Assembly (NCBI RefSeq): GCF_001748285.1
Contig: NZ_BDGT01000026.1
Coordinates: 1-64,000, forward strand
Source of the DNA: Thermogemmatispora onikobensis
GTDB taxonomy: Bacteria > Chloroflexota > Ktedonobacteria > Ktedonobacterales > Ktedonobacteraceae
DNA: 64,000 bases
Direction: 5' to 3'
Shown piece by piece: positions 1-20,580 of this stretch; position 1 is the stretch's first letter, and every line of letters begins with the position of its first letter. The position numbers and the translations under genes are program-made. The notes under the pieces were generated by a model. That model was not told the DNA's origin. It saw only the letters and a list, made by a program, of their open reading frames with translations, and made no database searches.

Positions 1-1745
1 AGCGCTTCGATCAGGCCTGCGAACGCTGGCGGGGCCTCTACCGTGCGGCGCTTGCCCAACGCAATACCCAGGACCGCATTATCACCGATCCTTCGCGCAG
101 TCACCAGGATAAGGAGAGTGCCCAGCGCCTGCGCGCCGAGGCCGAGTCACAACTGCTGCTGCTGACCAGTGGCGATCACGATAGCGATGTCAATGTCGAA
201 CAGTCCGACTTCTATAGCTATCGCTACTTTGCCAGTGAGGGCTTCTTGCCGGGCTACAACTTCCCGCGCCTGCCGCTCTCGGCCTATATCCCGGCACGCC
301 GTACCAGGCAGCGCGATGAATATCTCTCGCGTCCGCGCTTCCTGGCGATTGCCGAATTCGCGCCGCGGGCGATCATCTATCACGAAGGCTCACGCTATGT
401 CATTCATCGCTCGCTGCTGCCGCGGCAGGCTGATGGCTCGGGCGTCATCACCTCCTCGGCGTACCTCTGCTCCCATTGTGGCTACCTGCATCCGCTGACG
501 GCAGAGCGTAGCCTGGAGGTCTGCGATGCCTGTCAGCGTCCGCTGAGCCGGCGCCTGGACCAGCTCTTCCGCCTGCAGAACGTCTCGACGCGGCGCCGTG
601 ACAAAATCACTTCCGACGAAGAGGAGCGTTTGCGCGAGGGCTATGAGATCTACACCGCCCTGCGCTTCTCCGAAAGCCGCGGGCGCTCCTTGCGTGTCGT
701 CGCACGCATAGAGAGCAGGGGCCAGACGCTAGGCTCTCTGATCTACGGGCAGTCGGCAACGCTCTGGCGCATGAACTTCGGGCGGCTGCGACGGCGAAAC
801 GAGGCCAGGCGCGGCTTTGTCCTCAACAAGGAGACGGGCGAGTGGGGCAAGGAGGATGCCATTGCCAGTGACCCAACTGATGCCCTGCCGGCTGGCACCA
901 TTCGCGTCATTCCCTACGTCGAAGATACGCGCAACTGCCTGCTTTTCAAGCCGGAGCAGGAGCTGGATGTGGCACAGATGGCCTCGCTGCAGTCGGCGCT
1001 CAAGAGCGCCATCCAGCTCTGTTACCAGCTTGAAGATAACGAGCTGGCCGCGGAGCCATTGCCACACGCCGATCAGCGTCAGTTACTGCTCTTCTACGAG
1101 GCTGCCGAGGGTGGGGCTGGCGTCTTGCGCCAGTTGATCGATGTGCCGGAGGCGCTGGCGCGAGTCGCATGCGAGGCTCTGCGGCTCTGCCACTATGATC
1201 CCGAGACCCTGGAGGACCGGCGCCGGGCCTCGCGCGCCCGCGAGGACTGTGAGGCGGCCTGCTACTACTGTCTGATGACCTACGCCAATCAGCGCGACCA
1301 TCGCTTGCTGGATCGCGCGCGTATCCGTGATCTGCTGGCCGAACTAAGAGAGTGTCGCGTCGTGCTGGCTGAGGAGACGGGTCCCGCGCTCGCTGCGACT
1401 GCGGCAGAGGAGGTGTCTGCCACGCTGCTGGATGAGGCCCGCGAGGAGATCGAGCGCGAGTGGTTGCGCTGGCTGCAGGAGCAGGGCTATCGCCTGCCGA
1501 CCCGCGCCCATTGGCAGCCGCCGTATTGCTCGGCTACCCCTGACTTCCTCTACGATGGGGATGCTGATGCGGCAGCCATCTATGTCGACGGCGACGGGCC
1601 TGCCGGCGTTGCCCGCGCCGCCCGCGATGTGGAGAGCAGTGAGGAGCTGTACGATCAGGGCTATCTGGTCCTGCGTTTTGGCCCTCGGGAGCAGTGGGGT
1701 GAGCTATGTCGCCGTTATCCACACATTTTCGGGAGGGAGCCATGA
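1..1745 (+). CDS. C-terminal part of a large DUF1998 helicase, DISARM DrmA/DrmB-like (5' end outside window)
   Basis: The frame is open from base 3, so the gene begins upstream and its helicase motor is not seen. The visible part has a first zinc-knuckle pair (CSHCGY then CDAC, bases about 465-535). A long DUF1998-type region follows and ends in the second cysteine cluster, C-x3-C-x2-C with CYYCL (about 1248-1275). DUF1998 proteins accompany helicases in DISARM and in MrfA-type repair enzymes. The last 120 residues carry TPDFLYDG and YVDGDGP, then a hydrophobic strand. This pattern is like the PD-(D/E)XK fold of Vsr/DUF559 nucleases, but the expected E-x-K is not clear. The stop overlaps the next start (ATGA at 1742-1745), so the three defence genes are one operon. 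The DUF1998 assignment is fairly sure; the nuclease tail is inference. Confidence 0.75.
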   Translation, partial: RFDQACERWRGLYRAALAQRNTQDRIITDPSRSHQDKESAQRLRAEAESQLLLLTSGDHDSDVNVEQSDFYSYRYFASEGFLPGYNFPRLPLSAYIPARRTRQRDEYLSRPRFLAIAEFAPRAIIYHEGSRYVIHRSLLPRQADGSGVITSSAYLCSHCGYLHPLTAERSLEVCDACQRPLSRRLDQLFRLQNVSTRRRDKITSDEEERLREGYEIYTALRFSESRGRSLRVVARIESRGQTLGSLIYGQSATLWRMNFGRLRRRNEARRGFVLNKETGEWGKEDAIASDPTDALPAGTIRVIPYVEDTRNCLLFKPEQELDVAQMASLQSALKSAIQLCYQLEDNELAAEPLPHADQRQLLLFYEAAEGGAGVLRQLIDVPEALARVACEALRLCHYDPETLEDRRRASRAREDCEAACYYCLMTYANQRDHRLLDRARIRDLLAELRECRVVLAEETGPALAATAAEEVSATLLDEAREEIEREWLRWLQEQGYRLPTRAHWQPPYCSATPDFLYDGDADAAAIYVDGDGPAGVARAARDVESSEELYDQGYLVLRFGPREQWGELCRRYPHIFGREP

Positions 1746-4645
1746 ATTACGCCGTCGGTTCTCTGGTCAAGGTGCGAGGGCGTGAGTGGGTGGTATTGCC
1801 GGAGTCGAGCGCCGATCTGCTGGTCTTGCGTCCCCTCGGCGGGACCGATGAGGAGGTCACAGGGGTCTACCTGCCGCTGGAGCCGGTTGAGCCGGCGCAG
1901 TTTGCGCTGCCTGATCCGCGTCAGTGGGGTAACCACCCCTCGTGTGCCTTGCTCCGTGATGCCGTGCGCTTCGGCTTCCGTGCCAGTACGGGGCCTTTCC
2001 GCTCGTTTGCCCATCTGGCGTTTGAACCGCGGCCCTATCAGCTCGTACCGCTATTGATGGCCTTGCGCCTCGATCCGGTACGCTTGCTGATCGCTGACGA
2101 CGTGGGGATTGGCAAGACTATCGAGGCGGGTTTAATCGCGCGCGAGCTGCTGGATCGACGCGAAGTCAGGCGCCTGGCGGTGCTCTGTCCGCCGCATCTG
2201 GCCGAGCAGTGGCAGGCTGAGCTGCGCGAGAAGTTTCACATTGAGGCGGAGCTTGTGCTCTCCAGTACGGTGGCTCAGCTAGAGCGCAGGCTGCCTGAGC
2301 GGGACCTCTCGCTCTTCGAGTACTATCCCTTCGTCATTGTGTCGCTGGACTTTATCAAGGCGGACCGGAGGCGCGACGAGTTTTTGCGGACCTGCCCCGA
2401 GCTGGTGATTGTCGATGAGGCCCATACCTGTGCTTTCCCTGGCCACGAGCGGAGCGGGCGCCATCAGCGCTATCAGCTGGTCGCCGGGCTGGCGGCTGAC
2501 CCGCGCCGTCACCTGATCCTGGTCACGGCTACGCCCCATAGCGGCAAAGAGGAGGCTTTTCGCTCGCTGTTGGGCTTCCTGAAGGAGGAGTTCAAGGAGC
2601 TGCCGCAGGACTTGAGCGGGCGGGAGAACGAGCGTCACCGCATCCGTCTGGCGGCGCATTTTGTGCAGCGACGGCGCGCCGATATCCGCTCCTATTTGGA
2701 GCGTGAGACGCCGTTTCCAGAGCGTGATGATCGTCTGGAATCTTATAAGCTTTCCGATAGTTATCGCCGATTGATGCAGAAAGCCCTCAGCTATGCCAGC
2801 GAGGTGGTGCGCGATCCCACTGGCGGGCAGACGCGGCGTCGGGTGCGCTGGTGGTCGGCGCTGGCCCTGCTGCGCTCGCTGGCTTCGAGTCCGGCGGCGG
2901 CAGCGGCCACGCTGCGGAGCCGCGCCCAGGTGGCTGGAGCCGAGAGCGTAGAGGAGGCCGATCAGATTGGACGCCAGACGGTGTTTGATCTGCTGGACAG
3001 CGATGCGACCGAGGGCCTCGATCTGGTCCCGGGCAGCGACTTCGAAGAGGGAGACGAGGAAGGGGCGGACATCAGCGAAGAGCAGCGGGTTCGACGCCGT
3101 CTGCTGGCGATGGCGCGCGAGGCCGAGGCTATTACCTCTGAGCAGGATATGAAGCTGCAAAAGGCGATTGAGCTGATCAAGGGGTTGGTGCAGGGAGGCT
3201 ATCAGCCGATCGTCTTCTGTCGCTTCATCCCGACTGCCGAGTATGTAGCGAAGGCGCTGCGGAAGCGTTTGCCGGAAGAGATTGAGGTCTCGGCCATTAC
3301 GGGTCTCTTGCCGCCGGCGGAGCGCGAGAACCGGGTCCTGCAGCTGGCTCGGCACGAGCGCCGGGTCCTGGTCTGCACCGATTGTCTGAGCGAGGGTATC
3401 AATCTCCAGGAATATTTCAATGCTGTGCTCCATTATGACCTGTCCTGGAATCCGACGCGCCACGAGCAGCGAGAAGGGCGTGTCGATCGCTTTGGGCAGG
3501 CCAGCCCACTGGTGAAAGTCATAACGCTCTTTGGGGAAGATAATCAGATCGATGGGGTGGTGCTGCGGGTCTTGCTTGAGAAGCATCGGGAGATTCGCTC
3601 GAAGCTGGGAATTTCGGTGCCGGTGCCGCTGGATACCGAGCAGGTGATCGAGGCGATCTTTGAGGGCTTGCTCTTGCATGAGAGCCTGACCGGAGCGCAT
3701 GCGGGGCAGCTGCTGCTGCCGGGCTTTGAGGACCTGCTGAAGGGGGAGCAGAGGAATCTCTACCGCGAGTGGGAGGCGGCCTCTGATCGAGAGCGCCGCT
3801 CGCGCACGCTCTTTGCGCAGCATAGTATCAAAGTGGAGGAGGTCGCTCAGGAGCTGCGCGAGGTGCAGGCGGCCATCGGGTCGAGCGAGGATGTGGAGCG
3901 CTTTACGACCGAGGTGCTGCAAGCCTATAAGGCCTCTCTGAAACAGCTTCGCAGCGAGCCAGACGTCTGGGAGGTCGATCTGCGGGAGACGCCTGCACCT
4001 TTGCGTGATGCTGTCAATCTGCCGCGCTATGCTGGTCCCAACGGCCAGCATCTGCGGGTGAGCTTCAGACGCCTGGGCCTGCCGCGCACGCTCTATCTGA
4101 GTCGTACGCATCCATTCGTTGAGGGGCTGGCGACCTATGTGCTGGATACGGCCCTTGATCCGGTCGATGATGTGAATAATCCTCGCGTTGCTCGACGCTG
4201 TGGGGTTTTTCGCACCAGCCATGTCGAGAAGCGCACGACACTGCTGCTGGTGCGTCTGCGCTTTCATCTGCGGACGGCGACGCGCGGCGAGGAGGAGGCG
4301 CTGTTAGCGGAGGAGTGTCAGCTTTATGCCTTCCGTGGGGCACCGGCGCAGGCCGACTGGCTTGAAGATGCTGAGGAGATTGAGGCGCTGGCCCAGGCGC
4401 CTGCCGAGGCCAATCTGGCGCCGGAGCAGATTACGGATTTTCTGCAGCGAGTCATCGATGGGTATCCACAGCATCTATTGCCGTACCTGGAGGAACAGGC
4501 CCGCAGGCGAGCTGAAGCCTTGCGCGAGTCGCATCGGCGCGTGCGTCAGGTGGCGTCGCTGAGCCTGCGGCAGCTGGCGGTCGAGCCGCTGCTGCCGCCG
4601 GATGTGCTGGGTATCTATGTCTATCTTCCTTTGCTGGCCCGTTGA
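1742..4645 (+). CDS. drmD: SNF2/RapA-type helicase, DISARM DrmD-like
   Basis: This is a 967-residue superfamily 2 ATPase. Visible motifs are Walker A DDVGIGKTIEAG (residues about 117-128), DEAH box VDEAHTC (about 224), motif III VTATPHSG, and in the C-terminal helicase domain motif V TDCLSEGINLQ and motif VI QREGRVDRFGQ (about 575-586). The long C-terminal extension is charged and has no motif I recognise. RapA/SNF2 proteins translocate on duplex DNA, and in class 1 DISARM the DrmD protein is of this type. I chose the ATG at 1742 because GGAGGG sits just upstream and the start overlaps the preceding stop; a longer frame from 1706 would lie inside that gene. DrmD is assigned from the neighbours as well as the motifs. 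Outside DISARM this would be called a generic SNF2 helicase. Confidence 0.85.
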   Translation: MNYAVGSLVKVRGREWVVLPESSADLLVLRPLGGTDEEVTGVYLPLEPVEPAQFALPDPRQWGNHPSCALLRDAVRFGFRASTGPFRSFAHLAFEPRPYQLVPLLMALRLDPVRLLIADDVGIGKTIEAGLIARELLDRREVRRLAVLCPPHLAEQWQAELREKFHIEAELVLSSTVAQLERRLPERDLSLFEYYPFVIVSLDFIKADRRRDEFLRTCPELVIVDEAHTCAFPGHERSGRHQRYQLVAGLAADPRRHLILVTATPHSGKEEAFRSLLGFLKEEFKELPQDLSGRENERHRIRLAAHFVQRRRADIRSYLERETPFPERDDRLESYKLSDSYRRLMQKALSYASEVVRDPTGGQTRRRVRWWSALALLRSLASSPAAAAATLRSRAQVAGAESVEEADQIGRQTVFDLLDSDATEGLDLVPGSDFEEGDEEGADISEEQRVRRRLLAMAREAEAITSEQDMKLQKAIELIKGLVQGGYQPIVFCRFIPTAEYVAKALRKRLPEEIEVSAITGLLPPAERENRVLQLARHERRVLVCTDCLSEGINLQEYFNAVLHYDLSWNPTRHEQREGRVDRFGQASPLVKVITLFGEDNQIDGVVLRVLLEKHREIRSKLGISVPVPLDTEQVIEAIFEGLLLHESLTGAHAGQLLLPGFEDLLKGEQRNLYREWEAASDRERRSRTLFAQHSIKVEEVAQELREVQAAIGSSEDVERFTTEVLQAYKASLKQLRSEPDVWEVDLRETPAPLRDAVNLPRYAGPNGQHLRVSFRRLGLPRTLYLSRTHPFVEGLATYVLDTALDPVDDVNNPRVARRCGVFRTSHVEKRTTLLLVRLRFHLRTATRGEEEALLAEECQLYAFRGAPAQADWLEDAEEIEALAQAPAEANLAPEQITDFLQRVIDGYPQHLLPYLEEQARRRAEALRESHRRVRQVASLSLRQLAVEPLLPPDVLGIYVYLPLLAR

Positions 4646-4741
4646 GGTAGGAGGCCCGGGCGAGAAAAAAAGAAGACGAACGAGCAAGTTCTTGCTCTGA
4701 CAGGCGACCATCGATTCTCTCAAGGAAAGGCGGAGGCATCT

Positions 4742-7700
4742 ATGCAGCAACGGCAGGAGATCACTTTCTCGACGATCGAGTCTGAGGGGGCTTTGCTGCC
4801 GCCGGATCTTCTGGCGCGCATCGATCAGGGGGATAAGGCGCTGGGTGGGCTGAGTTCTGCTGAGTATCATTGTCCAGGCGAGCAGTTGAACGAGGTGATC
4901 AGCGATGCCTGGGCGCGCGTCCGCCGGCGCTGGCTGCGCTTTCAGGAGGCGCTGGTGCGCTATCCGCAGATGGATGAGACGCAGCTGACGCATGAGCATT
5001 GGCTCTTGCCGCTTTTCCATGAGTTGGGCTATGGGCGGTTGGTGAAGGCACCTCCGCAGGTGATTGGGGAGAAGAGCTATCCGATCGCTTATTTCTGGGG
5101 GCAGGAGCCTGTACAGGTGCCCGTGCCTATTCATCTGGTCGGCTGGCGTACTGATCTTGATCAGACCCAGCGTCTCGCCAGCGGTGGCCGCAGCAGTCCT
5201 TTTAGCCTGGTGCAGGAGTGGCTCAATCGTTCGTCTGGCCATTTGTGGGGCATTGTCTCGAATGGGCTGCGCTTGCGGCTGCTGCGTCGCAACGTCAGCC
5301 TGACGCGCCAGGCCTATCTGGAGTTCGATCTGGAGGCCATGCTGCGCGGAGAGGTCTACGCCGATTTTGTGCTCTTCTGGCTGCTCTGCCATCAGTCACG
5401 CTTTGAATGTGAAGACAAGAATCCCGCTGAGTGCTGGCTGGAGCGCTGGTCACGGCAGGCGCACGAGGAGGGGGTTCGGGCGCTGGAGCATTTGCGCCAG
5501 GGGGTGACCACAGCTATCGAGGAATTGGGGCGTGGCTTTCTGGCGCATCCGGCCAATCATGCTTTGCGTGATCGCTTGCGCTCCGGTGAGCTGAGTGCGG
5601 ATGATTATTATCAGCAGTTGCTGCGTCTGGTCTATCGTTTGATTGTGCTCTTTGTGGCGGAGGATCGCGATGTGCTGCTGCGGCCCGATGCTGATAAGGA
5701 GGCGCGGAGGCGCTATGTGAACTATTATTCGACGGCGCGGCTGCGTCGTCTGGCGCGCGCGCGGCTGGGGACGCGCCATAGCGATCTCTATCGGGCGCTG
5801 CGTCTGGTGATGGAGCGGCTGGGGAGCGAGCAGGGCTGTCCAGAGCTGGGGCTGCCGGCGCTCAATGGCTTTTTGTTCTCGCGTGAGGCCCTGCCCGATC
5901 TGGCTGACTGCGAGCTGACGAATTATGCGCTGCTGGTGGCGGTGCGGGCCTTGGCGACGGTCCAGGATGAGCAGAAGGTCCTGCGTGTCGTCAACTACAG
6001 AGACCTGGGGTCCGAGGAGCTGGGCAGCGTCTATGAGTCGCTGTTGGAGATGCATCCTTCCATCAATGTGGAGCAGACGAACTTTACGTTGGAGGTGGTC
6101 GCGGGCAGTAAGCGCAAGACGACGGGGACCTACTATACGCCGACCAGCCTGATCGAGTGCCTGCTTGATTCGGCGCTGGAGCCGGTGCTGGAGCGGGCCT
6201 GTGCGCAGCCTGATCCTGAGCAGGCTATTCTGAGTCTGAAGGTCTGCGATCCGGCCTGCGGGAGCGGCCATTTTCTGATTGCTGCAGCCCATCGCATAGC
6301 GCGCCGGCTGGCGGCGGTGCGCACGGGCAGCGAAGAGCCGGGACTGGAGGCCCGGCGGCGAGCCTTGCGCGATGTGGTGGGGCGCTGCCTCTATGGGGTC
6401 GATGTGAATCCGATGGCGGTGGAGTTGTGCAAGGTGAATCTCTGGCTGGAGGCGCTGGAGCCGGGCAAGCCTTTTTCTTTTCTGGATGCGCATATTCAGT
6501 GCGGCAATAGCCTGATCGGGGCGACGCCGGCCCTGCTGCGCGAGGGCATTCCCGATAGCGCTTTTGAGAAGGTTGAGGGCGATGACTCCGCGCTGTGTGG
6601 GGAGTACAAGAAGCTCAATCGGGCCCAGCGGGCGGGCCAGCTCAGTCTGTTTACGCTGGATGCGCAGCTCTGGCAGGACCAGGGCCGGATTGTGGAGAGT
6701 CTGACGCACATGGAGGCGATTGGTGATGATGATGTTGAGCAGTTGCATCGTAAGCAGGAGCGCTATCGTCAGTTGCTGAGATCGCAGGAGTATCAGCGGG
6801 CGCGCTGGCTGGCCGATGCCTGGTGCGCGGCCTTTGTCTGGCGCAAGCGGCGGACGGCTGAGCTGCCGTATCCGATTACGGAGGAGGTCCGGCGCAAGTT
6901 TGAGGAGGCGCCCGAGCAGGTGCCAGGCTGGATGAAGGCCGAGATTGCGCGCCTGCGCGAGCTGTACGGTTTCTTTCACTGGCACCTGGCTTTTCCAGGG
7001 GTCTTCCGTCTGCCGGAGCCGGGCGAGGAGCCGGAGAACCCCGAGACTGGCTGGTCGGGCGGCTTCGATGTGGTGCTGTCTAATCCGCCCTGGGAGCGCA
7101 TCAAGCTGCAAGAGAAGGAGTGGTTTGCCTCGCGTCGGCCTGACATTGCCAATGCGCCTAATGCGGCGCAGCGGCGGAAGATGATCGCGGCTTTGCAGGA
7201 CGAGGACCCTGCCTTGTACGCTGCTTTTGAGGAGGAGCTGCAGCGGGCAGCCTACGAGAGCCATTTCGTGCGCAACAGCGGGCGCTTTCCTCTCTGCGGA
7301 CGGGGCGATATCAATACCTATTCGATCTTTACTGAGACGATGCGCCTGCTGCTCGCCCCGCGCGGGCGCCTGGGCTGCATTGTGCCCTCCGGGATTGCGA
7401 CGGACGATACGACGAAAGCGTTCTTCCAGGATATCATGAGTGCGCGCTCGCTGCTCAGTCTCCATGATTTTGAGAATGCGGCTGGTATTTTCCCTGGAGT
7501 GCATCGGAGCTATAAATTCTGCCTGCTGACGCTGACCGGTTCCGCGGAGCCGGTGTCGCAGGGGGCGACCTTCGCCTTTTTCCTGCGCAAGGTGGAGGAG
7601 CTGCAGGAGCCGGAGCGCTGCTTTACTCTTTCCGCCGAAGATGTGGCTCTGATCAATCCCAATACGCGCACCTGCCCCGTCTTTCGCTCGCGCCGCGATC

Positions 7701-8767
7701 TGCAGTTGACGAAGGCCATCTATGAGCGTGTGCCGGTGCTCGTCAGGGAAGGCTCTGCTGAGGGGAATCCGTGGGGGGTGAAGTTTACTACGATGTTTCA
7801 TATGGCTAACGACTCGCATCTCTTCCGCACGCGCGAGCAGTTGGAGCGCGAGGGCTGGCGGCTGGAGGGAAACATCTTTCGCAAGGGAGAGGAGACCTAT
7901 CTGCCGCTGTATGAGGGAAAGATGATCACTCATTTCGATCATCGCTTTGCCAGCTATGCCGGCGAGCAGGCTGCACGCCAGGATAAGCCGCTGGAGTTGA
8001 GCGAGGAGCAGCATCACGATCCGTTTGCGCTGCCTTTGCCAAGGTATTGGGTTCATCAGACAGATTTTGCGAGCAAAGTAAAGACCAGCAGAACAGCATT
8101 GTTAGCATTTAGAGATGTTGCTAGATCTACGGATATGCGGACAGCTATATTTTCTATGATTCCTTTTGTACCATGTGGGCATAAATTGCCTATTTTCATT
8201 GAACCTGTAGACATTCAGTCTCTGGTTTATCTGGCTACTTGCTGTTCCTCAATGCTATTCGACTATGTTACGCGCCAGAAATTGGGAGGAACTAGCCTCG
8301 GTTTCTTCATCCTCAAACAGCTTCCTGTCCTGCCGCCGGCGCGCTACCAGCAGCCGTGTCCCTGGGAGAGCGACCGCACGCTCGGCGACTGGATCAGGCC
8401 GCGTGCCCTCGAACTCACCTACACCGCCTGGGACCTGGCCGCCTTCGCCCGCGACTGCGGCTACGACGGGCCGCCCTTCCGCTGGGACGAAGAGCGGCGC
8501 TTCCTCCTGCGCTGCGAGCTGGACGCCGCCTACTTCCACCTCTACGGCATCGCCCGCGACGACGTCGACTACATCATGGAAACCTTCCCCATCGTCAGGA
8601 GCGAAGACCTCAAGCGCTACGACGACTATCGCACCAAGCGGGTCATCCTGGAGATCTACGACGAACTGCAGCGTGCCAGCGCAACGGGCCAGCCCTATCG
8701 CACGCGCCTCACACCGCCGCCCGCCGACCCCGCCGTCGCCCATCCGCCGCGGCCCCACCAGTCCTAG
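4742..8767 (+). CDS. drmMI: Large N6-adenine DNA methylase, Eco57I/PglX type, DISARM DrmMI-like
   Basis: This 1341-residue protein has motif I CDPACGSGHFL (residues about 502-512), which binds S-adenosylmethionine, and the catalytic motif NPPWERI (about 781), typical of gamma-class N6-adenine methylases. The C-terminal third (RDVARST, then LGFFILKQLPVLPP) is the conserved tail of Eco57I-like enzymes. No nuclease motif is evident, so its role is probably self-marking of host DNA in the DISARM-like operon. A 96-bp gap separates it from drmD and contains a short palindrome (4682-4697). The start follows GGCGGAGG. Base use is oddly mosaic: bases to about 8040 favour G/T-ending codons, 8040-8290 are clearly A/T-rich, and 8330-8767 use mostly C-ending codons. 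This suggests recombination within the gene. BREX PglX is the main alternative, but no pglZ or brxC is present. Confidence 0.85.
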   Translation: MQQRQEITFSTIESEGALLPPDLLARIDQGDKALGGLSSAEYHCPGEQLNEVISDAWARVRRRWLRFQEALVRYPQMDETQLTHEHWLLPLFHELGYGRLVKAPPQVIGEKSYPIAYFWGQEPVQVPVPIHLVGWRTDLDQTQRLASGGRSSPFSLVQEWLNRSSGHLWGIVSNGLRLRLLRRNVSLTRQAYLEFDLEAMLRGEVYADFVLFWLLCHQSRFECEDKNPAECWLERWSRQAHEEGVRALEHLRQGVTTAIEELGRGFLAHPANHALRDRLRSGELSADDYYQQLLRLVYRLIVLFVAEDRDVLLRPDADKEARRRYVNYYSTARLRRLARARLGTRHSDLYRALRLVMERLGSEQGCPELGLPALNGFLFSREALPDLADCELTNYALLVAVRALATVQDEQKVLRVVNYRDLGSEELGSVYESLLEMHPSINVEQTNFTLEVVAGSKRKTTGTYYTPTSLIECLLDSALEPVLERACAQPDPEQAILSLKVCDPACGSGHFLIAAAHRIARRLAAVRTGSEEPGLEARRRALRDVVGRCLYGVDVNPMAVELCKVNLWLEALEPGKPFSFLDAHIQCGNSLIGATPALLREGIPDSAFEKVEGDDSALCGEYKKLNRAQRAGQLSLFTLDAQLWQDQGRIVESLTHMEAIGDDDVEQLHRKQERYRQLLRSQEYQRARWLADAWCAAFVWRKRRTAELPYPITEEVRRKFEEAPEQVPGWMKAEIARLRELYGFFHWHLAFPGVFRLPEPGEEPENPETGWSGGFDVVLSNPPWERIKLQEKEWFASRRPDIANAPNAAQRRKMIAALQDEDPALYAAFEEELQRAAYESHFVRNSGRFPLCGRGDINTYSIFTETMRLLLAPRGRLGCIVPSGIATDDTTKAFFQDIMSARSLLSLHDFENAAGIFPGVHRSYKFCLLTLTGSAEPVSQGATFAFFLRKVEELQEPERCFTLSAEDVALINPNTRTCPVFRSRRDLQLTKAIYERVPVLVREGSAEGNPWGVKFTTMFHMANDSHLFRTREQLEREGWRLEGNIFRKGEETYLPLYEGKMITHFDHRFASYAGEQAARQDKPLELSEEQHHDPFALPLPRYWVHQTDFASKVKTSRTALLAFRDVARSTDMRTAIFSMIPFVPCGHKLPIFIEPVDIQSLVYLATCCSSMLFDYVTRQKLGGTSLGFFILKQLPVLPPARYQQPCPWESDRTLGDWIRPRALELTYTAWDLAAFARDCGYDGPPFRWDEERRFLLRCELDAAYFHLYGIARDDVDYIMETFPIVRSEDLKRYDDYRTKRVILEIYDELQRASATGQPYRTRLTPPPADPAVAHPPRPHQS

Positions 8768-8780
8768 TTATCCGCCCATC

Positions 8781-8815
8781 GGCCAGGCCCCAGCCCGGAT
8801 CAAAGGGGCCTGGCC
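8781..8815 (+). terminator. Hairpin after the DISARM-like operon
   Basis: A perfect 11-bp inverted repeat (8781-8791 pairs with 8805-8815, 13-nt loop) begins 13 bases after the methylase stop. No T-run follows, so it may be a factor-dependent terminator or an mRNA 3' end rather than a classic intrinsic terminator. Confidence 0.5.
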
Positions 8816-9100
8816 CTGGTGGGCCACCACCACCGCTCTCCCTCCTGCCAGCTCTCCTGGTCTCCTCACCCTGGCACGACAGCCACCAGCGGCGGCTCGC
8901 CCGCCGCACGCCACGCGCCGCCCGCTGTGCCCTTCCCTGCAGAATCCGCCAATCATTGGCGACGATTATTCTATCACCCTGCCTCAAAGCGTCTCTATAA
9001 TACCCAGCGGATAGAGAGAAGCAAAGCAAAGACGCACTCCTCACAAGACAAAAACAGAACACTCCGATAGACGAGCGCACAAGCGAAAGGAGAGATACAC
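8816..9100. other. Intergenic region before the alcohol dehydrogenase
   Basis: No credible gene is present. A TATAAT hexamer at 8996-9001 (+ strand) is a plausible -10 box for the downstream dehydrogenase, with about 95 bases of leader, but I see no good -35 at the right distance. Confidence 0.4.
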
Positions 9101-10141
9101 GTGAAAGCAGCCATCTTCCGTGGCGCTGGCAACGTTGTCGTAGAAGAGCGACCCGATCCAGTCATTCAAGAGCCGACCGACGCCATCGTACGCATCGTCC
9201 GGGCCTGCGTCTGCGGCTCCGACCTCTGGTATTATCGCGGCATTTCGCCCCATCCCGAAGGTCCCATCGGCCACGAATTCATCGGCGTCGTCGAAGAAGT
9301 CGGCCCTGAAGTCAAGACCATCAAGCGCGGAGACTTCGTCATCGCCCCCTTTGCCATCAGCGATGGAACCTGTCCCCACTGCCGCGCTGGCTTCCACACC
9401 GCCTGCATCCGAGGAGGCTTCTTCGGCCAGGGCATTGAAGGAGTCGCCGGACAGGCCGAACGCACCCGCGTCCCCCTGGCCGACGGCACCCTGGTAGCCG
9501 TCCCTGGGGCCCCGTTCTCCGATGAAGTCCTGGCCTCGCTCCTGACCCTCTCCGACGTCATGGGCACCGGCTATCACGCCGCCGTCTCTGCCGCAGTCAA
9601 GGCGGGCGACACCGTTGCCATCGTCGGCGATGGGGCCGTCGGCCTCTGCGCCGTCCTCGCCGCGCGCCTGCTCGGAGCCGGGCGCATCATCATCCTCAGC
9701 CGTCACCCCAGGCGCCAGGAACTGGCCCGCGAATTCGGCGCCACCGACATCGTCGCCGAGCGCGGAGAAGCCGCCGTTCAGGCCATCCTGAAACTGACCG
9801 ATGGCATCGGTGCTGATGCCGTCCTGGAATGCGTTGGCACCAACGAAGCCAACCAGACCGCCTTTGCCAGCGCGCGCCCCGGCGCCATCGTCGGGCGCGT
9901 CGGCGTCCCGCACGAAGTCGAGATCCCAGCCGAAACGACCTTCTACCGCAACATCGGCCTGCGCGGCGGCCCGGCTCCCGTACGGGCCTATCTACCCCAG
10001 CTCGTGGAGGCCGTCCTCGCCGGCCAGATCAACCCAGGCCGTGTCTTCGACTTCACCACTGACCTCGACCACGTCGCCGACGCCTACGCCGCTATGGACC
10101 AGCGCCGGGCCATCAAATCCCTGCTCATCGTCGGGCAATAG
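9101..10141 (+). CDS. Zinc-dependent medium-chain alcohol dehydrogenase
   Basis: This 346-residue enzyme has the usual length and order of zinc MDR dehydrogenases. The N-terminal catalytic domain has the zinc ligands C in CVCGSDLW and H in GHEFIG. A structural cysteine loop CPHCRAGFHTAC follows, then a Rossmann domain with GDGAVGLCAV for NAD(P). It should oxidise an alcohol or reduce an aldehyde with NAD(P); the substrate cannot be read from sequence. The start is GTG at 9101, preceded by AAAGGAG. It stands alone between the DISARM-like operon and a convergent VOC gene. Codon use is rich in C-ending codons, like the last part of the upstream methylase. Confidence 0.9.
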   Translation: MKAAIFRGAGNVVVEERPDPVIQEPTDAIVRIVRACVCGSDLWYYRGISPHPEGPIGHEFIGVVEEVGPEVKTIKRGDFVIAPFAISDGTCPHCRAGFHTACIRGGFFGQGIEGVAGQAERTRVPLADGTLVAVPGAPFSDEVLASLLTLSDVMGTGYHAAVSAAVKAGDTVAIVGDGAVGLCAVLAARLLGAGRIIILSRHPRRQELAREFGATDIVAERGEAAVQAILKLTDGIGADAVLECVGTNEANQTAFASARPGAIVGRVGVPHEVEIPAETTFYRNIGLRGGPAPVRAYLPQLVEAVLAGQINPGRVFDFTTDLDHVADAYAAMDQRRAIKSLLIVGQ

Positions 10142-10289
10142 GCCGGGCGTACCCCTGCTCGTACCACTCGTACCAGGGAGCCGCCTCCTGGTCGCCGGTC
10201 CAGGTCCACAGGTCACGGCCTCGGGCCCACATGACAGCGCCAACAAGGCCGCTGCCAGCAGAGTGAACCATCTTCGTTTCCCCTGCCAA

Positions 10290-10328
10290 AAGGAAGGGGC
10301 AGCGGTATGACGCGGCTGCCCCCTCCTT
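10290..10328. terminator. Bidirectional terminator between convergent genes
   Basis: A 14-bp stem with one mismatch (10290-10303 with 10315-10328, 11-nt loop) lies between the convergent ends of the dehydrogenase and VOC genes. A-rich sequence on one side and C/T-rich sequence on the other fit termination in both directions. Confidence 0.65.
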
Positions 10329-10338
10329 CGTCCTGCGG

Positions 10339-10752
10339 CTAACGACCGACCTGCGGCCAGCCCTCGGCAGGCGCATCGCGATCATAGATCGTAATCGCGT
10401 AGCCATCCGGGTCCAGAAACGTAAACTGCCGACCGAAGCGCCCATCCGTAGGAGGGCGCAGAATAGCCACCCCCGCTGCCACCAGCGCATCGTGAACCGC
10501 CTGGCTATTAGCCGCCTTGAACCAGATTGCCGGCGTATCGATCGGGCGTGGCAGGGCCTCCCAATTCGTATCCGGCGGCGCCTGAATCAGACCGAAAGGA
10601 ACAGGATAGGTCAGAAAAGCGAGTCCGCGGGGAAACACTTCAGGATCGCGACGCAACCCCAGAACAGTTTCATAGAACCGCGCCGAAGCCTCCACATCAC
10701 GGACTTTCAGACCGACAAAAGCAGGGCCTTTCAGATCAAGATTGTTGGCCAT
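10339..10752 (-). CDS. VOC-family (glyoxalase/bleomycin-resistance fold) protein
   Basis: This single-domain protein of 137 residues begins with the beta-alpha-beta-beta-beta unit typical of VOC proteins (VGLKVRDVEASARFYETVLG) and ends with the family signature FLDPDGYAITIYD. The fold usually binds a divalent metal and acts as lyase, dioxygenase or drug-binding protein; no specific role can be given. I chose the ATG at 10752, which has a purine-rich AGAGAAG upstream, over an ORF start at 10788 that would add residues foreign to the fold. It faces the dehydrogenase across a shared terminator. Confidence 0.85.
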   Translation of the reverse strand: MANNLDLKGPAFVGLKVRDVEASARFYETVLGLRRDPEVFPRGLAFLTYPVPFGLIQAPPDTNWEALPRPIDTPAIWFKAANSQAVHDALVAAGVAILRPPTDGRFGRQFTFLDPDGYAITIYDRDAPAEGWPQVGR

Positions 10753-11020
10753 CTCTTCTCTCGCTTTCCTCAATAAGTGTGAGCGCACCGGCAGACAAGC
10801 GCTGAACCCGTCCGCCTGGCGCTATCCACTGCTGCGTGCCCCTCTTGGCGCCGACCAGCCGCCACGACAGGCAAGAACGACGCCCGCCCAGGCTGGGCAG
10901 CATGGGCACCTACCAGTAAGACTGAGGCCAGGCCAAAAACTGTGCGCCCACGTGCCGGCCAAAAAAATATGCGCCGCCACCCCTTGTCACAACAGCAGCA
11001 AATAGACAATCGCGCGCCAG

Positions 11021-11049
11021 TAGCCAGGACAGACCCAATGTGATACAAT
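11021..11049 (+). promoter_or_regulatory. Probable sigma-A promoter of the ECF sigma gene
   Basis: TAGCCA (-35, four of six consensus bases) is separated by 17 bp from TACAAT (-10, 11044-11049), with a TG one base before the -10 (extended -10). It lies about 80 bases before the ATG at 11131. The rest of 10753-11020 shows no gene. Confidence 0.5.
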
Positions 11050-11130
11050 AAAGACAACCGTTTCTTGCTCATCCCGAGCGAGCACCCAGACTGGGCAGTT
11101 GCCTGGTATTCGTGCATATGAGGAGCAGCC

Positions 11131-12273
11131 ATGACGACGCACAAGCATGCGAGAGCGCACGCCCAGCGCACGCCCGGTGGTACCGAGCCATTTCCCGTTT
11201 CCCCGGCAACCGACGCAGACCTGGCCTCTGACGGTAGTCCCCTCCTCGAAGCCTACCGTCAAGAACTGCTCATCTACTGCTACCGCCTGCTCGGATCGCT
11301 CCATGACGCCGAAGACCAGGTTCAAGAGACGCTCCTGCGCGCCTGGCGCCACCTTCAGGGCCTCAAAGACCCAGCCTCCATGCGTCCCTGGCTCTACAAA
11401 ATCGCCACCAACGTCTGCCTTGACGCCCTCAAGAAACGTCCGACCCGCACTCTCCCACTGGCTGCCTTTCCCCCCGCTGATCCGGAGCACCCCATAGCAC
11501 CCCCACTTACCGAAGCAACCTGGCTGGAACCATTCCCCGATCACTGGCTCAGCGAAGCCACTGAAAACCCTGAAGCTCGCTACACGCGCACAGAAAGCAT
11601 CTCGCTCGCCTTCCTCACCGCTCTGCAATTACTGCCTCCTCGGCAGCGGGCTGTCTTGATCCTCGCCGACGTCCTGGACTGGCGCGCCAAAGAGATCGCC
11701 CACCTGCTCGACAGCTCCATCGGCTCCATCAACAGCCTCCTACACCGTGCGCGCCTCACCCTTGAGCAACGCAATCGTGGACAGGAACCTGAGACCGCCC
11801 GCCAGCAGCCAGCGGACGAAGAGACGCGCCGTCTGCTCGCGCGCTACATGTATGCCTGGGAGCATGACGACATAGAAGGACTCATTGCGCTGCTTAAAGA
11901 AGAAGCTACCCTCTCCATGCCCCCTTACGCCGCCTGGTATCAGGGGCTGGCCGCCATCCGGGCCATCCTGGCCACCTGCCCTTTCCAGTCTGGGAGGCCC
12001 CAGCAGTGGCGTCTCTTGCCAACCGCGGCCAACGGGCAGCCCGCCTTTGCGGTCTATCGTCACAATGCCGCCCGAGATGCCTACATGGCCTATGGCATCC
12101 AGATGGTCAGCCTGGAGAAAAGCGCCGCCACAGCCGCCAGAGTCATCACCAGCATCATCATGTTCCACGATGCCGCACTTGTCGCCCGCTTTGGGCTGCC
12201 GGAACAGCTCCCTATCTCTTCGGAGCGGTACCACCCGGCAGGCAGCGCATTCGTAGCGCCACCGCCAACGTAG
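11131..12273 (+). CDS. ECF-type RNA polymerase sigma factor with C-terminal SnoaL-like domain
   Basis: In this 380-residue protein, sigma region 2 is seen at residues about 35-105 (LLGSLHDAEDQVQETLLRAW and RPWLYKIATNVCLDAL). Region 4 is at about 165-215 (LPPRQRAVLILADVLDWRAKEI). From about residue 240 there is a second domain (LLARYMYAWEHDDIEGLIALL) of the SnoaL/NTF2-like type found fused to some ECF factors. In these families the extra domain is thought to control sigma activity in place of a separate anti-sigma factor, and none is adjacent here. The ATG is preceded by GAGGAG. The target promoters are unknown. Confidence 0.9.
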   Translation: MTTHKHARAHAQRTPGGTEPFPVSPATDADLASDGSPLLEAYRQELLIYCYRLLGSLHDAEDQVQETLLRAWRHLQGLKDPASMRPWLYKIATNVCLDALKKRPTRTLPLAAFPPADPEHPIAPPLTEATWLEPFPDHWLSEATENPEARYTRTESISLAFLTALQLLPPRQRAVLILADVLDWRAKEIAHLLDSSIGSINSLLHRARLTLEQRNRGQEPETARQQPADEETRRLLARYMYAWEHDDIEGLIALLKEEATLSMPPYAAWYQGLAAIRAILATCPFQSGRPQQWRLLPTAANGQPAFAVYRHNAARDAYMAYGIQMVSLEKSAATAARVITSIIMFHDAALVARFGLPEQLPISSERYHPAGSAFVAPPPT

Positions 12274-12726: not shown

Positions 12727-12881
12727 TCAACTTGCTTATCATGCTGGCCATGCTGGCTCTTGATCCTGCTGCTAGCCAGCCTCGGCCCGGTCTGAAGCGC
12801 TGCCTGCCTCAGTGCAGTGCAGACACAAGGCACAATCGGCCAGCACCCCAGTAGGAGACCGCTCGCTGGCCGCAGGGCAAG

Positions 12882-14921
12882 CTAATCGACCATCCGTAGC
12901 TTGCAAGGGGTGGGATCGATGGCCACCAGGAAAGGCTGTATCATCCCATCCAGAGCAACAATCGCCTGACCTGGGGCCAGATTGGGTAGCCGCGTCCAGA
13001 GTCCCTCATCGATGCCGCCGATGCTCCGCTTCAGACGGCTGATCACGTTGGCATCGGTGATCTTATGGAGAACCACATTGTTAATGAGACCCAACACCTC
13101 GTCGGGCAGATGCTGCGGTAGCTGAGTCACAAAGACCAATCCCAGCCAGCGCTTACGCCCCCGCCGGGCCATGCGAGCCACCTGCTCGAACAGGGTTGGC
13201 ATCTGGCGCACACGCTCCGCCGACAGGAACTCGTGCGCTTCTTCGATGATCACCATGACAGGGACCAATCCCTTGCCCTCTTTGACGGCCTGCGTCTGAT
13301 CGGCTCCTGACGACGGTGTCGCCTGCCGCTCTGGCTGTCGCTCGAGCTGGGCATAGCGCTCATCCTGATGGCGATGCACTCCGCGTAGCAGCTCGGCGAT
13401 CACCAGATTATTGATCTGTGGCGAGTCGGTATCGCTGAGGTCAATAATCGCAACCTGTCCTTGGTGCAGCATCTGGTCATACCGCAGCGGCTGGGCCTTG
13501 CGATTATCGAAAATGCGCAGATTCAGCAAGCGCCTGAGCTTCCCCTGCAGGGCTCGCCAGCTCGAGGGCGCTCCTGGCAGTCCCTTGGCTGCAGACTTAA
13601 TCTTCTGAATGACGGTCTGGGAGGCTCCTTTCAAGTCTGGGCTACTGAACTCGATGTTTCCCTCGACCTTCTCGACGAGGGAAGTGCAGGCGCGGACCAC
13701 ATCATAGATGTGCTCCAGGCGCATGCCTCGATATCCCTCCTCTAGCTCATCCAGCTCCAACAGCCAGCTGGCATCTTCTCCAGCTCTCGGCGAGATTTTT
13801 AATTCATGCAAAATTTGCTTAGTAATATCGTAGGCACGTAGATAGCGCTCTTGCTGGGCCTCTGTCATCTCCAGCAGCTCGCACACAAGATACGGGGAGA
13901 GCTGCTCAAACAGGAGACAGAAGGGCTGGACGGTGGCCTGCTTCGGCTGCGGATTGGCGGTGCGGCGTCCTACCAGATGATAGATAGTGACCTGCCCCAC
14001 GCCAGCAGGCTGCTTTCGGCGCCGCTCCAGAGCGGCGAGCATCGTTGCATCGTCCGTCGGTTCGTCAATAGTGGTATATTCTCCTTCGGTATCGATGAGT
14101 ATCGTGGCGAAGCCCTGGCACTGGAGCTGACTCACCAGTCCGGAAACGGTCGTTGACTTGCCGCCGCCAGTTGTCCCGAGGATGCCGACATGGCGACACC
14201 AGAGCGACTTGCGCCTGGCGGGGACGCGCACGACCAGCTCCTCATGGCCAATGGCCAGGCCCAGCTCGATTTCTCCGTCCAATTTGAGCACACGGGCCAT
14301 TTCTTCGCTGGTGAGCACGTAGACGGGGCTCTTGGGCAATGGGCGGAAGCGCTGCGGAACCAGCTGGCCGCCTTTGCCTCCTAGCTCCTCGCCCAGGAGC
14401 TGGACCTGGACGCGCCCGTGATAGTCTGGCAGGAAAACAGTGCCGTAGACGGAAGTCGTGACCACGATTGGCGAGTCGCCGCGGATGCCATCCGGTTCGG
14501 CAAATGGCCCGCGGACGACGATCCCCAGGTAGGAGCGCCCGTCAGTGCTCTCGATGCGGACCGGTGCCTGCGCAGGCACTTTCCCGATATTGGCCTGCGG
14601 GAGGACAACAGTCACGGTATTATCTTCGCTGGCCGGGGTGTCGAACAGGGTTTGACCCACATAGCCAGGGCCGTAATCTCGCTCCTGCCATTCACCGCCG
14701 GCGTGCTCTGCATCCTCTGCGAGGCGCGCGAAGACCTCGCGAGGGAAGGGCTTGATAGTCTCTTCTCCTCCTCCTCTCCCGTCTTCCTTCTCCTCAATCC
14801 GCTTCGCGGCGCCCTCTGCTGGTGCGCCGTTGCGATGACGCTGCGTCTGCGCGGGTTTTGCCGGGGGCAGCTCCTCAAAGGGCCAGAGGGAATTGTTGGA
14901 ATCATCGTGCTGCTTCTTCAT
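12882..14921 (-). CDS. herA: HerA-type hexameric DNA translocase (DUF87 ATPase)
   Basis: In this 679-residue protein a charged N-terminal tail (1-60) and a beta-rich HAS-barrel-like region (about 100-240) precede the FtsK/HerA ATPase core. Walker A GTTGGGKST is at residues about 249-257, IDTEGEY follows, Walker B VMVIIEEAHEF at about 556-565, and a conserved QLPQHLPDEV segment (sensor) after it. HerA pumps DNA and works with the nuclease NurA in archaeal end resection. Bacterial HerA proteins paired with nucleases or other effectors act in phage defence. Here it is the last gene of a six-gene operon, 11 bases after a NurA-like gene, which supports a HerA-NurA complex. No strong ribosome binding site is seen, so it is probably translationally coupled. 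Confidence 0.85.
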   Translation of the reverse strand: MKKQHDDSNNSLWPFEELPPAKPAQTQRHRNGAPAEGAAKRIEEKEDGRGGGEETIKPFPREVFARLAEDAEHAGGEWQERDYGPGYVGQTLFDTPASEDNTVTVVLPQANIGKVPAQAPVRIESTDGRSYLGIVVRGPFAEPDGIRGDSPIVVTTSVYGTVFLPDYHGRVQVQLLGEELGGKGGQLVPQRFRPLPKSPVYVLTSEEMARVLKLDGEIELGLAIGHEELVVRVPARRKSLWCRHVGILGTTGGGKSTTVSGLVSQLQCQGFATILIDTEGEYTTIDEPTDDATMLAALERRRKQPAGVGQVTIYHLVGRRTANPQPKQATVQPFCLLFEQLSPYLVCELLEMTEAQQERYLRAYDITKQILHELKISPRAGEDASWLLELDELEEGYRGMRLEHIYDVVRACTSLVEKVEGNIEFSSPDLKGASQTVIQKIKSAAKGLPGAPSSWRALQGKLRRLLNLRIFDNRKAQPLRYDQMLHQGQVAIIDLSDTDSPQINNLVIAELLRGVHRHQDERYAQLERQPERQATPSSGADQTQAVKEGKGLVPVMVIIEEAHEFLSAERVRQMPTLFEQVARMARRGRKRWLGLVFVTQLPQHLPDEVLGLINNVVLHKITDANVISRLKRSIGGIDEGLWTRLPNLAPGQAIVALDGMIQPFLVAIDPTPCKLRMVD

Positions 14922-14932
14922 TGTGCGGCCTG

Positions 14933-16219
14933 CTACTTTCTGGCGCGTGTCCGGCGCTCACTCACAAAGCGGAATGGTTCACCTGCATGGACGTAGGCCG
15001 TGTGAATGGCATCTTCAAAGATGTCGTTGCCGAAGACCACGCGGCAGATGGCGTCTGCCAGATCGATGAGCAAGGGAAAGCCCCGGTGCTTGTGCAAGAC
15101 ACTATCTGCCAGAGCGATCAGCGCGGCCTCAAAGATATGGTCGATGTGACTATAGAAGATGTAAGGCTGGGCATAGGCCGAAGCGCGGTAGACACCCATC
15201 ACCACCTGCGAGCCGACTTCGTGGCTGAAGTGCTCTGCCTGCTGTTTGAATTGAGCGGGATAGTGTCCCCTGGTGGCGATCTCAAGCAGCTGGTCCTCGA
15301 TGGTCTCCAGAACGAGAAACTCCAGGGGCTCAAGGGCCTGGCCGATGGTCAGCCAATGGCGCCGCTGAGTGTCGCTCTGGACAAAGACCACCTTGCGATG
15401 ACCAAGGAGCAGCTCCTCCAGCATGGCCAGGCTGCGCGTGAACAACTCCATGCTGCCCGAGCCAGTAAGCAGCTCATAGGGGACGGGAGGGCCGTGGCCC
15501 AGGCGCCAGGGCGCCTGAGCCTTCCAGGTGAGCACCGCCCGTTCAGCATAGCTCATGATGCCGCGGCGGGCCAGCATGCTCAAGCGGCTCTGTTCCTCGA
15601 CCTCGATACTGCCGCGCTGGCTACGCTTTTCCAGCAGCGCCAGCAGATCCTCCAGTGGCTTACCGGTCGTCGCTCGCAGGTCGCGGCGAAAGAGACGCTG
15701 CGACCAGGACCCCTGGTCACCCTGATAGGAGACCAGGCAGACCCCTAACTGCGTGATCGTGATGGGCAGGCTATCGTAGCGCTGGCTCGTGCCATCACAG
15801 GCCTCGACCGCTCCGTTAAAGAGCAGGGCGCGGTGAGCGTAACGCAGGTCATCAAGCGAGACCCGATAGCACCCGGCGCCCCGCGCAGCGCCAGGGCGCC
15901 TGGCAAGGCGCGGAAAGACCTCGCGGCGAATTGGTTCGCGCTGAGCCCGCTCAAAGACCGCCGCCTCCCTGATTTCGGCCTCTAGTTTGCGATAGAGAGC
16001 CTCTAGATCACTACCTCCCTGCCACCTCTCAATGTCCAGCGTTTCCTCAAGCGACTCCCCATATGCCTCCTTATAGGTACGGGCATCCACCAGCGATGGC
16101 TCATCTTCTGGAGGCATCTCATCCACTCCTTCATTGAACAACCAATCCTGCAGCGTTTCTACTACATATTCCCTTCCTCCCGGAAAAGTGCGACAGATTC
16201 TGTAAATAGCCGGCGTCAA
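14933..16219 (-). CDS. nurA: NurA-like nuclease partner of HerA
   Basis: This 428-residue protein has the NurA-type start of the RNase H-like core (VEACDGTSQ at residues about 138-146, the DGS/DGT metal-binding aspartate) and the C-terminal segment GFPLLIDLADA that closes NurA domains. NurA is a Mn-dependent 5'-3' exonuclease and endonuclease activated by HerA. The start is TTG at 16219, overlapping the stop of the ImmA gene (TTGA), which implies tight translational coupling. The family match is by motif and by position next to HerA. Divergence is strong, so loss of activity cannot be excluded. The next in-frame ATG (16117) is an alternative start. Confidence 0.62.
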   Translation of the reverse strand: MTPAIYRICRTFPGGREYVVETLQDWLFNEGVDEMPPEDEPSLVDARTYKEAYGESLEETLDIERWQGGSDLEALYRKLEAEIREAAVFERAQREPIRREVFPRLARRPGAARGAGCYRVSLDDLRYAHRALLFNGAVEACDGTSQRYDSLPITITQLGVCLVSYQGDQGSWSQRLFRRDLRATTGKPLEDLLALLEKRSQRGSIEVEEQSRLSMLARRGIMSYAERAVLTWKAQAPWRLGHGPPVPYELLTGSGSMELFTRSLAMLEELLLGHRKVVFVQSDTQRRHWLTIGQALEPLEFLVLETIEDQLLEIATRGHYPAQFKQQAEHFSHEVGSQVVMGVYRASAYAQPYIFYSHIDHIFEAALIALADSVLHKHRGFPLLIDLADAICRVVFGNDIFEDAIHTAYVHAGEPFRFVSERRTRARK

Positions 16220-16977
16220 TTATAAAAGCCGAGCAGATGAGCGATAGAGCGCTGGGTTGTCGCCGGAAAGAGCAGCGTGGCGTAGCCCTGAGCAATGGCC
16301 GGCGGCAGGCCATAGGTGACAACCAGCAGGCGCCGGGCGATGTGCCTCCTCTCAGCCGAGTCTGCGCCTTTCTGGAGCTGCTGGTCGACCTGCGAGAGCA
16401 GCCGCCTGGCGGGTGCGAGCAGTTCGAGGGCCAGGCGATCGGCCTCTCGCTCAGCGCGCAGCAGGGCACTGACCCGCTCCATATCTGCGGTTGTCCGCGG
16501 TAACAGGTCCAGATAGAAGCCGAGCTTGCAGCTGGCCAGGATGGCATTAAGCCGCTCCTCGAAGGTAGGAGGGCGCTCGCCATCGAGCACAGGAAGAATC
16601 GAAGGTCCCAGGCGCCGGATAGCGCGTTGCCGGGGCCGGAGGTAGTCGTGCAGAAAATGAGCTAGCTCGTGGGCCAGGGTATAGCGCTGCTCTTCGGGCG
16701 GATCGCTGCGATCCACAAAGATCAATCCATGTCCTCGCACTGCGATGAGGCAACCGTGAAGCGGGCGTTCAGCACAGCTGGAGCAGTAAGCGATTCCCCG
16801 CTGCTGCAGCCAGCGCTCAACTCGCTCCACGCTCAAGCGCGTGAGCGAGAAGATCGCGACCGGATAGGCGCGTCCGGCGATCGGAGCCAGATCACAGGGA
16901 TAGGTTGGCGCACAGGCAACGGAGCGCCAGAAAGCGGCGGCCTCCTCCGTTACCCAGGCCGGCAGGGAAATCATCAT
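16216..16977 (-). CDS. ImmA/IrrE-family metallopeptidase
   Basis: This 253-residue protein carries the zinc-binding HELAH motif at residues about 103-107 and a downstream EREADRLALELL helix, which supplies the third ligand in the M78 peptidase family. ImmA (ICEBs1) cleaves the repressor ImmR, and IrrE (Deinococcus) cleaves DdrO after DNA damage, switching on mobile-element or repair genes. Its ATG overlaps the stop of a small upstream gene (ATGA, 16974-16977), and it overlaps the NurA-like gene downstream. In this operon the likely substrate is a regulator encoded beside it, the small protein or the sigma-like factor. That is inference. Confidence 0.85.
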   Translation of the reverse strand: MMISLPAWVTEEAAAFWRSVACAPTYPCDLAPIAGRAYPVAIFSLTRLSVERVERWLQQRGIAYCSSCAERPLHGCLIAVRGHGLIFVDRSDPPEEQRYTLAHELAHFLHDYLRPRQRAIRRLGPSILPVLDGERPPTFEERLNAILASCKLGFYLDLLPRTTADMERVSALLRAEREADRLALELLAPARRLLSQVDQQLQKGADSAERRHIARRLLVVTYGLPPAIAQGYATLLFPATTQRSIAHLLGFYN

Positions 16978-17991: not shown

Positions 17992-18106
17992 CGGGGCCTC
18001 CTTTGGTGGGAACAACGCCGGACAAACGAAGCGCACCCGTTCGCCAGGGAGGGCGAAAGAGTGACTTCTGGCCTGTCCTCCTTCCTGCTGCTCTCGGCTA
18101 TCAGCC

Positions 18107-19291: not shown

Positions 19292-19449
19292 CGCTCTTCC
19301 TGACTTTCCTTGCCGTAGGGGCGCTCAATGGTCTTCCGCCGGCTAGAGGCTGTGCCTGACTGCCGTTGTCCCTGCCTTGCCTTGCCATAGCGAAGAACGG
19401 GCGCGCGTCGCTGACGTATTGCAGTGAGATCTATCGATCGCTCAATTGT

Positions 19450-19458
19450 ATTATATCA
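19450..19458 (-). promoter_or_regulatory. Extended -10 promoter of the methylase-sigma-ImmA-NurA-HerA operon
   Basis: On the minus strand TG-A-TATAAT is a perfect extended -10 element. The sequence 17 bp further up (CTAACG) is a poor -35, as is common for extended -10 promoters. The expected transcript start near 19443 leaves an untranslated leader of about 150 bases before the methylase ATG. Confidence 0.6.
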
Positions 19459-20519: not shown

Positions 20520-20580
20520 CGGCGTGGTGCCGGCTGGAAGGCGCTCTCGCGCACCATCTCTCCAGACTGAAGGAGTGAGC

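Follow-up and report, generated by a model that had tools for sequence, protein, structure and literature searches.

ARMADA Type I operons are described, in the accessible text of their report, as a YprA-like helicase gene, a BrxHII/RapA-like helicase gene and a PglX-like methylase gene, in that order (PMC12458937). PglX, as known from BREX, is described in the accessible part of another report (PMC11341690) as having a single specificity domain (TRD) that follows the methyltransferase domain, at residues 662-849 in the Salmonella protein. Genes of R-M systems differ from the host core genome in base composition, as far as the available text of PMC12707154 goes. The available text of two papers on TRD exchange and domain movement in R-M specificity genes (PMC3077401, PMC3983042) contains nothing on GC content or base composition in such exchange, and no statement on the base composition of TRDs was found in the literature searched, outside which most subscription papers lie. 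Here we analyzed a locus related to these systems in the window, by which we mean the whole stretch of 64,000 nucleotides of Thermogemmatispora onikobensis DNA (contig NZ_BDGT01000026.1, positions 1 to 64,000), which is the start of a contig in a draft genome of 112 contigs. The following genes make up the operon:

1..1745, + strand: YprA/DruE-like helicase, 3' part of the gene, with a C-terminal MrfA Zn-binding (DUF1998) domain (profile matches)
1706..4645, + strand: SNF2/RapA-like (DrmD/DpdE/BrxHII-like) helicase, ArmA-like (profile matches)
4742..8767, + strand: Eco57I/PglX-like adenine DNA methylase, ArmB-like, 1341 aa, intact (profile matches and motifs)

The 5' part of the first helicase gene lies beyond the contig end. 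By the methylase gene, the nearest named relatives are T. aurantia (locus L002, genome G038) and T. carboxidivorans (L003, G039), and the full helicase homologue in T. aurantia, of 1628 aa, combines DEAD, Helicase_C and MZB in one protein, with MZB/DUF1998 at 1377-1472 (Pfam). The L002 genes stand in the order helicase (118-5004), second helicase (4965-7904) and methylase (8001-12014). The window methylase matches Eco57I and N6_Mtase at 63.8 and 46.0 bits, both above cut-off, and contains the DPACGSG (GxG) and NPPW motifs. Of 80 orthologous loci, 59 contain both partner helicase genes, and several of the remainder are short contigs; clustering of neighbors across the 80 loci gave, besides the two helicases, no family present in more than 10.

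The first-pass annotation had called this methylase DISARM-like and, as expected for DISARM class 1, the PADLOC models for DrmMI (235.8 bits) and DrmD (284.6 bits) do match. In other respects the locus is unlike DISARM class 1: DUF1998 is fused to the helicase here, whereas DISARM has a separate drmB gene; the T. aurantia helicase is matched far better by PADLOC DruE models (up to 243.4 bits) than by DrmA (34.7 bits); and the SNF2 helicase is matched better by PADLOC DpdE (867.2 bits) than by DrmD, with the NCBIfam DrmD model scoring below its cut-off (328.9 of 610). No drmC (PLD) was found among the four L002 proteins scanned. Since DISARM's separate DUF1998 gene is absent, we suggest that the DISARM-like label be given up; judged by gene order, the operon would be ARMADA Type I, which is the better fit.

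We noted additional features in the related genomes. In T. aurantia, ~23 kb separate the methylase gene from the dehydrogenase gene, and proteins encoded 3' of the methylase (L002:14509-17605) match MADS mad3 (115.8 bits) and a CARF model (50.6 bits). Another Thermogemmatispora (G042) has only operon fragments in the sequence searched (G042:C2:500066-502274): one fragment (L139:2067-2302) resembles window positions 551-790 with 79% identity, and another (G042:C2:502176-502274) encodes 33 residues of the methylase tail with 76% identity and lies ~13 kb from the alcohol dehydrogenase gene. These fragments look like a decayed ARMADA locus.

Our analysis centers on the following parts of the methylase gene:

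7860..8400, + strand: exchanged cassette, probable TRD (29-47% DNA identity to T. aurantia and T. carboxidivorans in 100-column steps from 7941)
8041..8310, + strand: AT-rich core of the cassette (GC scan; synonymous GC in orthologues)
8403..8767, + strand: conserved C-terminal tail, beginning near LELTYTAWDL, with C-ending codons; right flank of the cassette

The first-pass annotation had reported that codon endings change within one open frame from G/T to A/T and then to C, with edges at about 8040 and 8330, and had suggested recombination, perhaps a specificity swap. The composition break itself was confirmed. At 41.1% GC, 8041-8310 is the lowest of all 270-bp stretches in the window (mean 61.8%), and the next-lowest minimum more than 300 bp distant is 48.5%. 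By 100-codon block, GC3 goes from 0.66-0.81 up to 8041, to 0.41 at 8042-8341 (A3 0.23) and then to 0.93 at 8342-8641 (C3 0.69). The predicted series of endings was likewise found at four-fold sites, with G 0.52 and C 0.31 upstream, A 0.33 and T 0.40 in the core, and C 0.69 and G 0.26 in the tail; C-ending codons do continue into the alcohol dehydrogenase gene, as had been claimed (C 0.69 at four-fold sites). Thus, 8040 and 8330 are roughly right as edges of composition. The C excess of the tail relative to the upstream part goes beyond local fluctuation (Fisher p 7.7e-8), and upstream windows of 54 sites never rise above C 0.46. All three Thermogemmatispora copies have this C-ending tail, unlike the upstream part of the gene, but among the 68 orthologues of the family only 43 have a higher C minus G in the tail; tail C-richness is not a family trait. 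We also note a minus-strand open frame of 868 aa at 5450-8056, antisense to the part of the gene that precedes the AT-rich patch, which is most likely a by-product of codon composition.

To place the patch within the protein, we used an AlphaFold2 model of the methylase built from 57 sequences (pLDDT 90.1), in which the patch corresponds to model residues 661-750. Model residues 24-762 align with residues 21-413 of M.TaqI (Z 19.0, 375 aligned, 5.5 A). The C-terminal domain of M.TaqI is its recognition domain. The aligned ranges of CamA (Z 24.3, 495 aligned, 6.2 A) and BrxX (Z 23.0, 547 aligned, 7.0 A) span the patch, as does that of MmeI. Residues 221-958 of 8c45_A align with model residues 12-854. 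A PDB sequence search with the alignment gave no match at E 0.001. Since these structural ranges give the first and last aligned residue only, the TRD is assigned by position, and on this basis 7860-8400 is likely to be the TRD with the patch as its core.

We found that the DNA of this region differs as a block from that of both congeners. In 30-column steps, identity of the window to L002 and L003 is 0.93-1.00 at 7800-7859, falls from ~7860, is 0.20-0.57 between 7920 and 8400, and is at least 0.93 from 8406 to the end of the table at ~8585. The edges of the swap are resolved to ~100 bp: identity drops from 0.97-1.00 to 0.20 in ~120 bp on the left and rises from 0.30 to 0.93 in ~50 bp on the right. 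Within the block, even the residues that have remained the same have a codon identity of 0.12-0.50, and at 33% protein identity the two cassette types are remotely homologous. By comparison, the operon at 1-7925 is 98.4% identical to T. aurantia and 92.9% identical to T. carboxidivorans, and the core region at 20000-26000 is 96% and 91% identical, respectively. Near-identical flanks enclosing strongly different TRD alleles are the pattern sought for TRD exchange, and such a block difference between conserved flanks would be best read as allele replacement; the DNA alignments thus support a specificity-cassette swap in the probable TRD.

The suggestion of a specificity swap therefore held in part: a cassette appears to have been exchanged, but the composition steps are not its breakpoints. 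The swapped block (~7860-8400) is about twice the length of the AT-rich patch, and the T. aurantia and T. carboxidivorans orthologues have the same composition steps as the window, an AT dip that recurs in many phyla (see below), and we rejected 8040 and 8330 as recombination breakpoints on these grounds. Thus, the relatives share the composition steps, and yet identity to them breaks strongly.

We considered that the TRD might have diverged in place by very rapid evolution, with no swap at all. This would be compatible with the 33% protein identity that the alleles retain and with an AU test in which the three congeners as one TRD clade were not rejected (p 0.319; 110 TRD columns), but it does not account for the abruptness of the identity edges, the scrambling of synonymous positions, or the greater similarity of the window cassette to other family members (56-58%) than to its congeners (33%). 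We consider divergence in place extremely unlikely, and the case for the swap is based on the DNA identity profile, not on the AU test. An assembly chimera, for which the draft state of the genome (112 contigs) might speak, is hardly conceivable, given a single open frame with family motifs and the same arrangement, with the other allele, in the separate genomes of L002 and L003.

The cassette swap may itself have had more than one step. L002 and L003 have one cassette type, with shoulders (7920-8073 and from 8327) that are 0.97-1.00 alike, and differ mainly at 8074-8326 (0.67-0.90 in 30-column steps), which is the AT-rich core and with which the 8040-8330 interval roughly coincides; a further difference between the two, at 7740-7799 (0.80), lies outside the cassette. 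Because L002 and L003 share a cassette type but differ in its core, two nested exchanges are likely.

Other parts of the locus also depart from a uniform relationship. At window 7441-7540, outside the cassette, identity is 0.77-0.78 to both congeners, which are 93% alike there; thus, divergence is not confined to the TRD. Within the methylase gene, the window and T. aurantia have the same sequence through much of 4742-6200, T. carboxidivorans goes down to 76-84% DNA identity at 4787-4967, and at 6812-7172 the window matches T. carboxidivorans equally or better, so that by these alignments the methylase is evidently a mosaic outside the TRD as well (4742-7172). On the right side, the dehydrogenase gene (8937-10136) is closer to G041 (93% identity) and T. 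carboxidivorans (91%) than to T. aurantia (81%), while 12833-19485 is 98% identical to T. aurantia; the locus is apparently a mosaic on this side too.

We examined the relationships of the cassettes with quick trees of 34 of the 68 sequences described below. The flank tree (588 columns) unites the three Thermogemmatispora congeners in one clade (support 100). In the free TRD tree (110 columns), the window groups with L005 and L085 (support 90), and L002 plus L003 lie elsewhere on a long branch. The nearest cassettes to that of the window are from other family members, at 56-58% protein identity compared to 33% for the congeners, and the best-scoring matches to the L002 cassette from outside the genus, among 22 matches listed, are at most 35% identical. 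Since the window cassette is closer to the family and that of L002 is remote, the window cassette may be the older type. No donor was found for the window cassette, the closest match being at this 56-58% level. Phage donors are unsupported: of 22 pattern-matched stretches in viral contigs, only 2 encode a relative, at 32% identity. Across all pairs of the 68 orthologues, TRD identity barely follows flank identity (r 0.15).

To find out how general the AT-rich core is, we used a codon alignment of 68 orthologues (the window and 67 loci selected by coverage and identity >41%, with partial, distant or known duplicate copies removed from the loci listed) and corrected GC3 for amino-acid content by each gene's own non-TRD codon usage. 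Adjusted GC3 at aa 1101-1190 is below expectation in all 68 (mean -0.235; z < -2 in 61), with a trough of synonymous GC at aa 1136-1165 that is seen across many phyla. One pair, L010 and L075, is 99% identical and was kept in this set; in a non-redundant set of 52 sequences (<70% flank identity), from which it was removed, the shift is negative in 51. The gene-wide GC3 minimum falls within aa 1060-1230 in 55 of the 68, where ~14% would be expected by length, and elsewhere in 13. In contrast, the partner helicase gene (48 sequences) stays within 0.03 of zero and has no trough. Upstream of the cassette core, at aa 781-1080 (window 7082-7981), synonymous GC is also lowered across the family, but less so (0.04-0.11). 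From these alignments, AT-richness appears to be a recurring property of the TRD position, and not the scar of one event.

If the dip reflected relaxed constraint, with fast-evolving sites drifting toward AT-biased mutation, it should have depended upon conservation. The region is indeed among the less conserved ones, and the least conserved codons elsewhere (<0.1) are shifted slightly (-0.07). However, patch codons of conservation 0.6-0.8 are shifted by -0.238, codons of conservation 0.1-0.3 elsewhere by only -0.01 to -0.03, and aa 631-660, the least conserved 30-aa block tabulated, has no dip (+0.001). When the codons of aa 1091-1210 are binned by conservation, almost every bin is shifted by -0.22 to -0.24, the exception being the nine most conserved positions, at -0.14; comparably conserved codons in the rest of the gene range from -0.07 (least conserved, <0.1) to +0.01. 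Conserved and variable codons thus show much the same dip, which indicates that the segment is shifted as a block. These conservation-binned shifts led us to reject relaxed constraint as the cause, and we regard it as very unlikely.

We propose instead that the ARMADA Type I PglX-like methylase draws its TRDs from an AT-richer pool and that this en bloc exchange outpaces amelioration, a reading to which we assign a probability of roughly 70%. The patch would be the core of the probable TRD, and homologous recombination in the conserved flanks (around YEGKM...FDHR to the left and LELTYTAWDL to the right) would exchange TRD cassettes as blocks; the methylase would then mark, and the system spare, a different DNA motif. 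Such cassettes would form a circulating pool of higher AT content than the hosts and, being replaced before they ameliorate, would keep the dip in place. TRD GC3 tracks that of the host (linear slope 0.80, r 0.77), and the logit shift deepens from -0.5 in hosts of the highest AT content to -1.2 in GC-rich ones; since the dip tracks host GC, no single pool of fixed GC explains it.

The main rival is that selection at the nucleotide level keeps the segment AT-rich, for example for weak mRNA structure during co-translational folding or for easy strand opening in recombination. The occurrence of the dip at one position over a wide range of host GC, AT-rich hosts included, and in conserved codons would fit such selection. 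A related reading in terms of slow codons is opposed by the AT-rich hosts, in which the shift probably goes to common codons. Evidence against nucleotide selection comes from a relative of the methylase within the genus, whose TRD motifs, compared visually, resemble those of the window methylase: its TRD is conserved in four genomes (0.81-0.90 over the TRD) and has no dip. This control is one gene in four genomes, with the shorter copy in the window genome (L183) left out, and it is our best evidence that the fold itself does not require AT-rich DNA. Another same-genus methylase, found like the first as a match to the window methylase, has a 45-codon dip of 0.13-0.24, with identity of 0.71 there and 0.51-0.79 around it; it shows no obvious swap and is ambiguous. 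On balance we consider nucleotide-level selection unlikely.

We also asked if the proposed exchange from an AT-richer pool extends to other specificity domains. HsdS TRDs were taken from Chloroflexota by Pfam matches, at 30 loci from a longer match list, of which 26 were usable (three were cut by contig ends and one lacked flanking codons). In 22 of the 26, GC3 of the TRD is lower than the flanking genes would predict (z < -2 in 18; mean -0.14), and four shift in the opposite way, two of them strongly. At several loci the whole hsdS gene is low in GC3, not the TRD alone. PglX, intended as a second general test, gave no match at E 1e-40 in 301 genomes or in 14 control genomes and was uninformative. 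We thus hold only tentatively, at somewhat less than even odds, the broader idea that specificity domains of defense methylases belong to a gene pool of their own that stays AT-rich, its members being exchanged en bloc too often to ameliorate, and that the specificity determinant is marked by a local trough of GC3 at any genome GC. If it is true, the trough could be used to find specificity determinants, with AT-shifted synonymous TRD sites as a possible signature from sequence only; moreover, the reason that TRDs stay AT-rich becomes testable, as continual import versus selection on DNA.

Compared to ARMADA Type I, the gene order here matches (with the first gene cut by the contig end in the window) as far as that order is given in the accessible text of PMC12458937, and by profile scores the helicase is closest to Druantia DruE models with DUF1998/MZB fused to it. 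The Vsr nuclease domain expected at the C-terminus of the YprA homologue in ARMADA Type I gave no Pfam match at E 0.05, and neither exchange of the methylase TRD nor TRD composition is mentioned in the accessible text of that description (PMC12458937). The methylase resembles BREX PglX/BrxX in that the structural alignment range covers both the methyltransferase domain and the patch; it differs in that NCBIfam PglX models score far under their cut-offs, and the surroundings would be unlike BREX, with no neighbor family beyond the two helicases in more than 10 of 80 loci. As in TRD exchange and domain movement in R-M specificity genes, to judge from the accessible text of PMC3077401 and PMC3983042, a specificity domain is swapped as a block while the flanks are conserved; unlike the cases in that text, a single probable TRD within a long methylase is exchanged at the same position in the gene. 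TRD exchange itself is already known, and it is seen here between sister species in a newly described defense system.
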